34,386 nt of DNA from Burkholderiales bacterium (GTDB taxonomy: Bacteria; Pseudomonadota; Gammaproteobacteria; Burkholderiales; Casimicrobiaceae): contig JACMNN010000061.1 in NCBI GenBank assembly GCA_014378555.1, positions 1 to 34,386 of the forward strand. The letters are read 5' to 3'. Under the pieces are notes generated by a model. It was given only the letters and a program-made list of their open reading frames with translations, was not told the origin of the DNA and ran no database searches. The stretch's first letter is position 1. Each line of letters begins with the position of its first letter. Both the position numbers and the translations under genes were made by a program. Below, in pieces: positions 2,738 to 14,434 of this stretch.

Positions 2738-4501
2738 TCATGCCCCCAAATACGCTTCGCGCACAGCGGGATCTGCCTGCACCGCTTCTGGCAATCCCTG
2801 CGCCAATTTTTGACCAAAATTCAACACCACGAGACGATCCACCACGCCCATCACAAAGTCCATATCGTGCTCAACCAGAAGCACCGTCACGCCCTCGCCT
2901 TTTAGTGTTTTGATTAACGATGCGAGTTGCTGCTTTTCCGCAAAGCGCAGACCAGCAGCGGGTTCATCAAGCAGCAGCAAAATCGGATCGGACGCGAGCG
3001 CGCGGGCAATCTCAACGATGCGTTGTTTGCCCAGCGGCAAACTGCTCGCAGCGTCGTGCGCATGCTCGGCCAAACCCACGCGCTGTAGCTGACGCATAGC
3101 TTCAGCCAAAGCCGCCGTTTCATCTTCCTTATTTAGACGCAACGCCGACGCGATGATGCCTTTGCTGCCGCGCAGATACGCCCCGAGCGCAACGTTTTCG
3201 ACCACGGTCATGGTGGCCACCAATTTGACGTGCTGAAAAGTGCGCGCCAAACCAAGTTTTGAGATCGCGCTTGCTGGTTGTCCGATCAGCTCGTGGCCCA
3301 TAAATTTGATCGAGCCCGAGGTCGCTGCAAGCGCACCGGAAATCAGGTTAAAGCAGGTGCTTTTTCCTGCGCCGTTGGGGCCAATCAGGCCGACAATTTC
3401 GCGCGCATCTACGTTGAACGTTACGTCGCCCACGGCAACCAATCCACCAAAAGTCTTTCGCGCGGCGGCGACCGACAAAACCGGCTCGTTAGCTGCTGGC
3501 ATCGGGCGATGTTGCAAGCGATCTCCAGCTGCGGGCAATACGCGCTTGGTCACTGGCACGAAGCGCTGCAAAAACGGCATCAGCCCATCGCGTGCATATT
3601 GCAGAATCAGCACCAGCAGAATGCCGAACACGATGATTTCGAACTGACCCGCCTCGCCAATAATCTTCGGCAGCAAGTCCTGCAGCCACGTCTTCAACAG
3701 CGTGACGAAGGTCGCGCCGAGCACCGCACCCCACACGCTGACCGCACCCCCAATCACGGCCATGAACAGATATTCGATTCCTTGATTAATGCCGAACGGC
3801 GTGGGGTTCACAAAGCGCTGCAAATGCGCATACAACCAGCCGGACAGACACGCGAGCACCGCGGCGATAACAAACACCGCCGTCTTAGTGCGCCCTGGAT
3901 GCACGCCGAAGGCTTCCACCATAGTGGTGCCCTGCTTTAGCGCGCGAATGGCGCGACCAGGACGAGAATCAAGCAGATTTGCCACCGCCCACAGCGCGGC
4001 CAGCACCACGATCCAGATGAAATAGTAGAAATGGCTTTCACGTTCTAGCGAAAAGCCAAAAAGGGACACCGGCGGGATGCCGGTAATGCCAGTGAATCCA
4101 CCAAACTGCTCGATGGTGCCCATCAAAAAATACAGCGACATGCCCCAGGCAATGGTGGCCAACGGCAGGTAATGTCCGCCCATCGATAGCGTGATGAGCC
4201 CGAGCAAATAGCCGACCGTCAAGGTGATGGCGAGCGCAACAATTAACGTCAGCCACGGCGACCAGCCGTATTGCGTGGTGAGCACGGCTGTGGTGTAGGC
4301 GCCCAATCCGACAAACGCCGCCTGCCCAAAGCTGGTTTGACCGGCAACTCCGGTGAGCAACACCAGGCCCAACGCGACTAGGCTGTAGAGCCCGATGTAA
4401 TTGAGCAGCGTAACGTAGAACGCAGGGGCAATCATCGGTGCAACCGCAATTAACGCGACCACGGTGAGCACCAGTATTTTTGTGACGGAAAGGCGCTTCA
4501 T
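2738..4501 (-). CDS. livM-livG: LivM-LivG fusion: permease plus ATPase of HAAT-type ABC importer
   Basis: 587 residues joining two usually separate proteins. Residues about 1-315 are a LivM-type permease with about eight hydrophobic segments, the conserved [19 protein letters not shown] block and the EAA-like loop around [15 protein letters not shown] linker of roughly 20 residues (about 318-338) leads to a LivG ATPase, about 340-587: Walker [10 protein letters not shown] at 374-382, signature variant SSLPLGKQR, Walker [14 protein letters not shown]-loop [10 protein letters not shown]. Such LivM-LivG fusions are known in beta-proteobacteria. The gene starts one base after the livH stop (4503) and its TGA is one base before the livF start, so translation is tightly coupled. 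Confidence 0.93.
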
Positions 4502-11383: not shown

Positions 11384-14300
11384 TCATTGCTCTATCTGCT
11401 TCGCAGCAACTTCTGCAGCACTTAAAGCAGTCATCGCAACCGATTTCTCTTTCGCCACGTTGCGATAAAGCTGATCGCGCCCACTTAAATATTGCTTGGG
11501 CCACGCGATGGCGGTAGCGCCAAGTTTTGCCGCTTCGTGCAGGGTCCACGCGGCGTCCGCTAGATGCGGCCGCGCAATGGCGCACAGATCAGCGCGACCG
11601 GCCGCGATGATGCTGTTGACGTGATCGGCCTCAGTGATTGCGCCCACTGCAATGGTGCGAATGCCGACCTCGTTGCGAATGCGATCAGCGAACGGCGTCT
11701 GGTACATACGCCCATAAATCGGTTTGGCATCGCGCGTCGTTTGACCGGAGGAAACGTCGATGAAATCGGCACCGGCTTCCTTAAATAATCGCGCCACGAT
11801 GATCGCATCGTCGACCGTGTTGCCACCCGGGGCCCAATCATGCGCCGAGATGCGCACGCTCATCGGCAAATGCTCGGGCCAAACAGCACGCACCGCTCTA
11901 AAAACCTGTAGCGGATAGCGGCAGCGCGCCTCGATACTGCCGCCGTATTCGTCCGTTCGCATGTTGGTCAGCGGACAGATAAAGCTCGACAGCAAATAGC
12001 CGTGCGCGCAGTGCAGTTCCAGCCAGTCAAAGCCAGCTCGCGCTGCGCGCTCAGTCGCTGCAACAAAAAGTGCGGTGACTGCGCGCATGTCGTCTTCAGT
12101 CATCGCCTTCGGAACCTGATTCTGCGGCCCGAACGCAATGGCGCTTGCGGCCAGCAGTGGCCAGTTGCCCTCGGTCATGGGCTCATCGGTGGTCTCCCAG
12201 CCCAGCTGCGTAGAACCCTTCGGCCCGCTGTGGCCGATCTGCATACCGATTTTGGCGTGGGTCGACGCATGCACAAAATCGACGATGCGCTGCCATGCCA
12301 ACATCTGCGCGTCGTTCCACAGACCGGCACAGCCGGTGGTGATGCGACCGTCGGGGGACGGGCAAGTCATCTCGGCGAACACCAGCCCCGCTCCGCCCAA
12401 CGCGCGCGCTCCTATGTGCACGAGATGGAAGTCGCCGGGCACGCCATCTACGGCGGAATACATAGCCGTGGGTGAGACCACAATACGATTGGCCAGCGTG
12501 ATGCTGCGTGCGGCAAGTGGCAGCAACATAGGCGGCACGCCAACATCCGTTCGCCCTGAGCGCAGCGAAGGGTTTGATTGCGCCGTTGAGCCATCAGCCC
12601 CTTCGCTGCGCCCAGGCCGAACGGGAAATTTGTCCGCTGCGGAATCCATTGCCGTAGCTGAAACGACGACACGATTGGCCAGCATGATGCTGCCTGCGGT
12701 AAGTGGTAACAGCATAGGCGGCGCGCCAACATCCGTTCGCCCTGAGCGTAGCGAAGGGTTTGACTGCGGCTCCGAGCCATCAGACCCTTCGCTGCGCTCA
12801 GGGCGAACGGGAAATTTGTCCGCTGCGGAATCTATTGCGGTGAGAGATCTGGCCCCTGCGAAATCCATTGCCGTGGCTGAAACGACGACACGGTTGGCCA
12901 GCGTGATGCTGCCTGCGGTCAGTGGTAGCAACGTAGGCACCGCGCCCCTATCCGTTTGCCCTGAGCGCAGCGAAGGGTTTGACTGCGTCGCTGAGTCATC
13001 AGACCCTTCGCTGCGCTCAGGGCGAACGGGAGATTTGTCCACCGCGGAATCTATTGCGGTGAGAGATCTGGCCACTGCGAAATCCATTACCGTGGCTGAA
13101 GCGACGTCACGGTTGGCCGGCGTGATGCTGCCTGCGGTAAGTGGTAGCAACGTAGGCGGCGCGCCCCTATCCGTTTGCCCTGAGCGCAGCGAAGGGTTTG
13201 ACTGCGTCGCTGAGCCATCAGACCCTTCGCTGCGCTCAGGGCGAACGGGAAATCTGGCGTGATTCTGCGCCAACCACCGCTCATAGCCGCCCAGCCACTC
13301 AGCATCCCGAGCGCGCAAATTCTCGTGACTGATCCGCTGCGAACGAGTCAGCAATGAATATGCAAACTGCTCTACCTCCATCGCGGTATAGCGATTGACG
13401 TTCTCGAACCACTCGGTTGAATTGCGCGCTGCATTTTGAATCTTCAACACCTCAACCGAACGCACCGCTTGGTAATCCGCAAGCGTTGCGCGTAAATCAT
13501 GTTCGCCATATTTCGCGAACGAACGTGTCAATTCGATGGCATCTTCCAACGCCAGCTTGGTCCCAGAGCCAATAGAAAAGTGTGCCGTATGCGCCGCGTC
13601 GCCCATCAACACCACCGGCGTCGCAGCATTCCATTTGACCCATGATTTACAAATCACGCGCGGAAAACGAATCCAGTTCACCGAGCCGCGCAGATGCGTC
13701 GCGTTGCTCATGAGGGCATGGCCATCAAGATATTTGGCAAACAATTTTTCGCAGAAGGCAATTGCCTGCGGCTGCTCCATCGCGTCCAGCCCGTGCGCCT
13801 TCCACACCGCCTCGGGCGTCTCCACGATGAACGTGGATGTGGTGTCGTCGTACTGGTAGGCGTGCGCCTGAAACCAGCCATGCTCGGTCTGCTCGAAGGC
13901 AAAGGTAAATGCGTCAAAGGTCTTGTTGGTGCCCAGCCACACGAAGCGGCAGTCACGCAAATCGATGTCCGGCTGATAGGTATCGGCGTAACGCGTACGG
14001 ATGCGGCTGTTCAGCCCGTCCGACGCGATCACTAGGTCGGCCGCGAACTCGGCCGCCATCGCTTGGTCATCGGTCACGTCCTGCTCAAACGTCAGCTCCA
14101 CGCCTAAATCTAGGCAACGCTGTTGCAGGATATTCAGCAGCCGCTTGCGGCCAATGCCACAAAAGCCATGCCCGCCCGATCGCACTGTGCGCCCGCGAAA
14201 GTGCACATCAATGTCGTCCCAATGATTAAACGCATCGCCAATCTGCGCGGCGGTAACCGGGTCAGCGATCTGCAAATTGCCCAGCGTCTGATCAGAAAAA

Positions 14301-14434
14301 ACAACGCCCCAACCAAAGGTGTCAAACGGACGATTGCGCTCGGCCACGCGAATAACGTTGCCAGGATTTTGCAACTTCATCAGCAGCGCGAAGTACAGGC
14401 CCGCTGGACCACCACCGATGCACAAGATTCGCAT
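11384..14434 (-). CDS. Bifunctional aryl-CoA monooxygenase / OYE-type reductase with expanded REP-coded linker
   Basis: 1016-residue flavoprotein. Residues 1 to about 393 are a class A FAD monooxygenase (salicylate-hydroxylase-like): dinucleotide motif [15 protein letters not shown] at 5-19, DG motif [12 protein letters not shown] motif [20 protein letters not shown] at 276-293. Residues about 631-1016 are an old-yellow-enzyme/2,4-dienoyl-CoA-reductase-type FMN domain: [25 protein letters not shown], and active-site [17 protein letters not shown] followed by DEYGG. This architecture is that of 2-aminobenzoyl-CoA monooxygenase/reductase and 'salicylyl-CoA 5-hydroxylase/oxidoreductase', normally about 770-790 residues. 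The excess is in the linker, 396-630, made of four REP-derived segments alternating with copies of the reductase's first strand. The frame is intact throughout, and both catalytic domains look complete. Confidence 0.9.
12547..13252 (-). repeat. Four-copy in-frame tandem repeat (REP palindrome pair + duplicated OYE strand)
   Basis: Four copies of a 79-bp element with inverted arms (CCGTTYGCCCTGAGCGYAGC ... CTTCGCTGCGCTCAGGGCG) lie at 12547-12625, 12733-12811, 12952-13030 and 13171-13249. Element starts are 186, 219 and 219 bp apart, all multiples of three. Between them the protein repeats [21 protein letters not shown]...SAVDK, which copies the start of the downstream reductase domain ([25 protein letters not shown]). 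The 186-bp unit lacks 33 bp coding for an 11-residue ARSLTAID-type piece. Arms of the element are read as RPERSEG and SNPSLRSG. Copies differ by scattered substitutions. Confidence 0.92.

Follow-up and report, generated by a model that had tools for sequence, protein, structure and literature searches.

REP-like doublets and copies of a domain edge in the linker of a bifunctional flavoenzyme from a Burkholderiales bacterium

REP dimers occur in frame inside many genes, where dimers or grouped repeats encode 20–30 aa and clusters 43–82 aa, and flexible linkers or loops have been suggested as places where such insertions could be neutral (PMC3733652). REP clusters are also repeated in tandem together with flanking DNA (PMC3733652, BMC Genomics 2013), and tandem units composed of a flank and a REPIN doublet have been analysed in extragenic space (PMC3116915, PLoS Genet 2011). 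The Rickettsia palindromic elements lie in frame in genes that are likely to encode functional proteins (PMC3733652). Both intragenic REPs and the tandem repetition of a REP with its flank are already published.

The window considered here is the whole of a 34,386-nt stretch (positions 1–34,386) of contig JACMNN010000061.1, from the Burkholderiales bacterium (Casimicrobiaceae) MAG GCA_014378555.1. It includes a gene for a bifunctional flavoenzyme with four REP-like doublets in the linker between its two domains. The Rickettsia palindromic elements differ in sequence from this repeat. They have in-frame palindromic insertion in common with the window, but the host differs, and tandem duplication of a host-domain edge is absent from the descriptions of these elements in PMC3733652. 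The window shares an in-frame repeat with the intragenic REPs described in that paper; beyond the cases presented there, a single linker here contains four doublets along with duplicated host-domain pieces (208 extra aa), and in relatives this site is occupied by unrelated families. Unlike the tandem REPIN clusters of the extragenic analysis in PMC3116915, the window flank is coding and in frame. New here are what looks like the recurrent landing of unrelated genomic repeats in the same linker and, in the window lineage, a tandem amplification that took a piece of the host domain along with the repeat. Searches of the open-licence literature turned up neither repeats in this enzyme nor a linker that had been colonised more than once.

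The host gene and the organisation of the array

The host gene (Table 1) is open throughout its 1016 codons (14434..11384, minus strand). The whole protein scores 1380.2 bits against NF006101 (PRK08255, bifunctional salicylyl-CoA 5-hydroxylase/oxidoreductase; cut-off 1078), and the single chain carries PF01494 at residues 3–325, then PF00724 at 639–964; in the PDB, the second half has its best relatives among OYE-like reductases. The initial annotation used the name 2-aminobenzoyl-CoA monooxygenase/reductase, which we take to be a related name for an enzyme of the PRK08255 type. Neighbouring genes that encode an enoyl-CoA hydratase (PRK08258; 479.2 bits, cut-off 330) and a product of the benzoate-CoA ligase family (369.5 bits, just below the cut-off of 375.25) fit a predicted activity on an aryl-CoA. 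The window protein has the domain order and full-length match of the PRK08255/NF006101 family but differs in its linker, which exceeds the requirement of the anchors by 239 residues, against 0–15 in 84 of the 108 rows with both domains (two rows are the window itself, and some are one gene from two sources). Relatives with shorter linkers had been expected in the initial annotation.

Within the linker lie four inverted-repeat doublets of 78–79 nt, with arms of 31–35 nt that are 86–94 % complementary. A 219-nt direct-repeat family is present in four copies with spacings of 186, 219 and 219 nt, the other three copies being 79–88 % identical to the reference copy; TRF reports the same four-copy array as two overlapping rows. 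On the coding strand each doublet is followed by a copy of the start of the reductase domain, and the true start adjoins the rest of the domain. The order on the minus strand is monooxygenase, doublet 1, edge 1, doublet 2, edge 2, doublet 3, edge 3, doublet 4, reductase. The coding-strand units measure 73, 73, 62 and 62 aa, the difference being explained by an 11-aa extra piece common to copies 1 and 2. The three extra units account for 208 residues in total; without them 808 of the 1016 would remain. The initial annotation had described four palindromes in one uninterrupted frame, a copy of the reductase-domain start with each, and a gain of 208 residues leaving 808; coordinates, spacings, open codons and unit lengths bear out all three points. 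The doublets do lie in the span that it gave, 12547–13252, but the array with its domain-edge copies runs on to about 12439. Where the native hairpin has the motif SPTAMY, the copies have SATVMD or SATAMD. An antisense open frame of 374 aa (window 12138–13262, plus strand) crosses the array; the palindromes and the high GC probably account for it.

Table 1. Features of the host gene and its linker array (window positions), in coding-strand order
Feature	Position	Strand	Basis
Bifunctional FAD monooxygenase/OYE-type reductase gene	11384..14434	-	NF006101, PF01494, PF00724; 1016 aa
Monooxygenase domain up to linker (about residues 1–389)	13268..14434	-	Family and domain matches, homologue alignment
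REP-like doublet 1, first on coding strand (VRPERSEG...SLRSGQT)	13171..13249	-	Repeat search, RNA fold
Reductase-domain edge copy 1 and spacer, with 11-aa extra piece	13031..13170	-	Unit alignment
REP-like doublet 2	12952..13030	-	Repeat search, RNA fold
Reductase-domain edge copy 2 and spacer, with 11-aa extra piece	12812..12951	-	Unit alignment
REP-like doublet 3	12733..12811	-	Repeat search, RNA fold
Reductase-domain edge copy 3 and spacer	12626..12732	-	Unit alignment
REP-like doublet 4, adjoins true reductase domain	12547..12625	-	Repeat search, RNA fold
Native first beta-hairpin of OYE domain (about residues 630–665), template of copies	12439..12546	-	Model strands 640–642, 645–647
OYE-type reductase domain	11384..12546	-	PF00724 residues 639–964; PDB relatives

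Folded as RNA, every one of the four doublets forms one hairpin (-59.4 to -62.5 kcal/mol; z -10.4 to -12.1), and for each of them none of 200 shuffles did as well. Four in-frame hairpins of about -60 kcal/mol could stall ribosomes, or starts within the array could give a separate reductase, in which case the gene would be split in practice; the methionine at the domain edge in units 3 and 4 (PPMLLPL) would suit such a start. However, units 1 and 2 have threonine instead, the same methionine occurs at the OYE edge in most repeat-free homologues, and the open frame would then be unnecessary. A gene split in this way is distinctly improbable.

It had been envisaged that the extra strands might pack as partial barrels; a structural model built from a 25-row alignment leaves the array unstructured instead. 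The model is weak (mean pLDDT 56.9). Residues 360–637 fall below pLDDT 50 and no secondary structure is assigned at 393–633; the native hairpin at 640–647 is formed (block pLDDT 84 for 641–650). This hints that the copies may be disordered, in array columns that had almost no aligned relatives.

Divergence of the copies and constraint on the enzyme

Copies 1 and 2 are the most alike (94 %), and copy 4 is the native one. Once the 11-codon piece is left out, the copies differ by 6–19 %, with the differences ordered by position, and no exact direct repeat in the linker is longer than 55 bp, which is below ordinary short-read length. These features, and a frame held across 208 extra codons, argue against multiplication or mosaicking of one unit during short-read metagenome assembly. 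Such an artefact is very improbable, even in a genome of 3.55 Mb that is 87 % complete and divided among 274 contigs, and with the array known from one MAG assembly; the earlier view that the copies are diverged and not a fresh assembly artefact is upheld.

Between copies dS is 0.04–0.39, and dN/dS is 0.36–1.75 on few changes; among the three extra copies it is 0.50–1.75, the value of 1.75 for copies 1 and 2 resting on 11 changes. Against G047, the nearest sampled relative, dS is 1.09 and 1.51, which is near saturation. The copies therefore appear younger than the split from this relative, although gene conversion between them could make them look younger than their true age.

In the comparison with G047, omega is 0.055 in each domain, and similar values are obtained between G047 and G041 (0.043 and 0.044). 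Both domains are under strong purifying selection. An enzyme that had gone out of use, with the array as debris under relaxed constraint, would agree with the relaxed evolution of the copies themselves, but not with two open domains at this omega or with an NF006101 score in excess of the cut-off. When neutral substitution was simulated at 0.195 per site, a level equal to half of the dS between copies 3 and 4, none of 3000 domain pairs stayed stop-free. A decaying gene is thus extremely unlikely. The initial annotation had also stressed that no copy has a stop. The frame is indeed open, but this is weak evidence, as stop-free copies have a chance probability of 0.10–0.23 under neutral substitution, and it was rejected as proof of selection. 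The domains, open at an omega of about 0.05, are better evidence for a working protein.

It is likely that the array arose by in-frame insertion of a repeat, followed by tandem amplification with the domain edge, and that it was tolerated in the linker. A high-copy REP-like doublet would have inserted in frame into a short flexible linker between monooxygenase and reductase. The doublet and the adjoining first beta-hairpin of the reductase would then have gone through at least two rounds of tandem duplication, more likely three, in the course of which an internal duplication of 11 codons arose. Slippage or short-homology recombination was probably promoted by the hairpin-prone tandem DNA, as may also occur at the other repeat loci of the genome; examination of the duplication junction revealed no clear homology. 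Selection on the enzyme would leave only frame-keeping events, in a site that tolerates them. Presumably translated at full length, the gene would yield a protein with a long tether that is probably disordered and in which the hairpin copies are decaying; the tether would be tolerated without having been favoured by selection. The initial annotation had proposed that a REP-like element landed in the linker and was spread by tandem duplication together with the start of the reductase domain. This is supported, with duplication in steps, by the 94 % identity of copies 1 and 2 and the native status of copy 4.

Repeats in the linkers of homologues

Among 103 distinct homologue genes there are 36 inserts of at least 8 aa. 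The linker holds 23 of them and a single loop, after reference residue 269/270, another seven; the six elsewhere are all of 10 aa or fewer. This insert map is free of bias from the choice of repeat families. In six rows the match to the first domain stopped short at the second site described below, which inflated the linker lengths as first obtained.

Three repeat families were compared with the 103 genes by BLAST: E1, the window repeat; E2, CCCTCTCCC..GGGAGAGGG; and E3, a 78-nt Comamonadaceae element. At E <=1e-4, the families were matched in the linkers of 11 genes. E1 was found in one gene of the 103, the window's own, where a whole element lies in frame in a real gene and is absent from homologues, as in intragenic REP decoration. 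E2 occurs in the linkers of L006, L007 and L010, and E3 in those of L054, L087 (two tandem copies), L081 (inverted), L043, L089, L040 and L077. The linker of L053 contains an exact E2 palindrome that BLAST missed; the gene was counted on the strength of this palindrome, and its genome was left out of the repeat copy counts. The total becomes 12 of 103. Repeats are thus borne by 12 of the 23 linker inserts of at least 8 aa and by 11 of the 12 of at least 25 aa, the exception being L103 (54 aa). The remaining 11 lengthened linkers showed no match to E1, E2 or E3. Homologues in unrelated taxa with the same linker but no palindromes would, according to the initial annotation, have spoken against its reading; long linkers without these families do exist, but this sequence is in none of the 102 other genes. 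Outside the 103, a partial gene (L008/L036, from G049) encodes an E2-type peptide at a locus with two exact E2 palindromes.

E2 was found at 155 places in G047, 53 in G041, 31 in G038, 84 in G049 and 72 in the window genome, against 0 for reversed controls. E3 gave 33–78 matches in each of 10 genomes (those of L054, L087, L081, L102, L108, L043, L040, L089, L103 and L077) and none in the window genome, with at most 40 candidates scored per genome. A second site, in the monooxygenase domain (reference residues 266–273), contains E3 in L087, L108, L102 and L091. L087 has repeats at both sites (second-site insert L087:5216–5476). Because it was from these linkers that the families had been selected, their confinement to two sites is partly a matter of choice. 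Weak pieces from the E3 search at the second site of L027 (E 0.012 and 0.043) and BLAST pieces at reference residues 53–59 in L107 and L021 (E 0.043) were left uncounted.

Inverted-repeat scores exceeded those of all 30 shuffles in the linkers of L039, L035, L007 and, narrowly, L087. The other listed linkers did not score above their 30 shuffles, including the repeat-bearing L053, L054, L081, L040, L043, L089 and L077; the window linker was left out of this test. As these scores missed repeat-bearing linkers, repetition in the genome was used as the criterion instead.

On a quick tree (LG+G4, linker excluded), the fewest changes, whether gains or losses and counted regardless of branch support, were 11 for the labels none/E1/E2/E3, 10 for presence alone and four for the second site. 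The window groups with G047, G049 and G041 (SH-aLRT 93; branching order inside the group not resolved). As these three all carry E2-type sequence, the window lineage may once have had an E2 element that was then lost or replaced. E2 is present in G038 and absent from its close relative G001. The gene was observed in 14 other members of the genus, and in none of them does this linker contain E1. With 12 of the 23 inserts drawn from three unrelated families, and at least 11 state changes, the linker appears to be a permissive site that has been colonised repeatedly. The unrelated repeats in the linkers of relatives, and arrays of the same kind at other loci, had been missed in the initial annotation.

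The linker could alternatively have been selected, its length or extra hairpins tuning domain spacing or the transfer of an unstable intermediate. The copies are in frame, linkers are lengthened in 23 of 103 homologues, and the repeats alone require at least 10–11 state changes, all of which would accord with this. It is unlikely, however, given the dN/dS of 0.50–1.75 among the extra copies, the loss of the native SPTAMY from the copies, the short linkers of most rows and the occupation of the site by sequences of three unrelated families. An effect on intermediate channelling, raised as a possibility in the initial annotation, is not supported. A broader version is doubtful too: long linkers in this enzyme family would owe their length chiefly to genomic palindromic repeats, with several to ten independent recruitments involving three or more families, tether length would be selected for intermediate transfer, and the window lineage would have taken amplification further by tandem duplication. 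Insertion and amplification in a tolerant linker remain the preferred reading. One enzyme position presents a natural series, from no repeat to one, to different repeats, and to four with domain-edge copies. This could let the effects of mobile hairpin repeats on multidomain protein evolution be measured, and likewise the effect of tether length on intermediate transfer. It also counsels caution, in that linker peptides in such genomes can be repeat-derived and are not to be read as conserved function.

The repeat family in the window genome and elsewhere

The core of the window repeat, CCCTGAGCGNAGCGAAGGG, has 319 half-sites (<=2 mismatches) in the 3.55-Mb window genome and none in reversed controls. 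Exact core matches number 172 in this genome, 49 in G038 and 0–11 in the other 15 of 17 genus genomes. Like REPs and REPINs, the repeat is a short imperfect palindrome present in high copy, and its inverted doublets fold into one hairpin. A GTAG or CGTC tetranucleotide at one end is a further REP criterion in PMC3733652; sequence inspection of the ends of the four window doublets found neither tag. PF01797 (RAYT) loci carried this repeat in 0 of 2 cases in the window genome and in 1 of 18 in six relatives, where an E1-like site lies about 1 kb away; some of the stretches reach contig ends, and the window genome is 87 % complete. With PF01797 loci lacking an adjoining repeat, a RAYT as mover of the window repeat has no support, and mobilisation of the element is unproven. 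The name is kept to 'REP-like doublet' because of the absence of GTAG/CGTC tags and of a transposase gene beside the repeat in the genome.

Tandem repeat-plus-flank arrays were reported by TRF in 17 of 38 fetched stretches, with up to nine copies of 104 bp; the stretches were chosen for repeat sites or open frames, so that this proportion is no rate. The maximum, at L130:883–1813 (G000:C91), consists of nine tandem copies of a 104-bp unit that bears a doublet. Repeat sites lie about 50–180 bases from the first base of G000 contigs C26, C27, C43, C109 and C114, where assembly breaks may coincide with repeat arrays.

Six further genes that match a known family also carry the doublet in an open frame. 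Two encode PutA, and the other four encode an acyl-CoA dehydrogenase, an HODM-like protein, a FecCD permease with the doublet at its N-terminus and an ArsR regulator with it at the C-terminus. In the permease the doublet may reflect a misplaced gene start. In comparison with PDB relatives, the doublet segments of PutA L138 and of the acyl-CoA dehydrogenase L139 fall in gaps of 26–27 aa. The two PutA genes, L137 and L138 (G000:C88 and C224), are from one MAG and have the in-frame doublet at the same place. The shared VRPERSEG reading frame in seven genes was rejected as evidence of selection; it is uninformative because most stretches were found using the peptide in that frame. An exact E2 palindrome was sought in the acyl-CoA dehydrogenase gene (L139:746–2155, G000:C63) and not found. 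Besides its in-frame doublet, this gene has an insert of about 34 aa, rich in proline and glycine, that resembles E2-family peptides.

Elsewhere in the window, a 587-aa frame at 2738–4501 (minus strand) presumably encodes a fusion between a branched-chain amino acid permease and an ATPase. At 854–925, between two open frames, there is a weak match to the repeat peptide together with one half-site of the same family.
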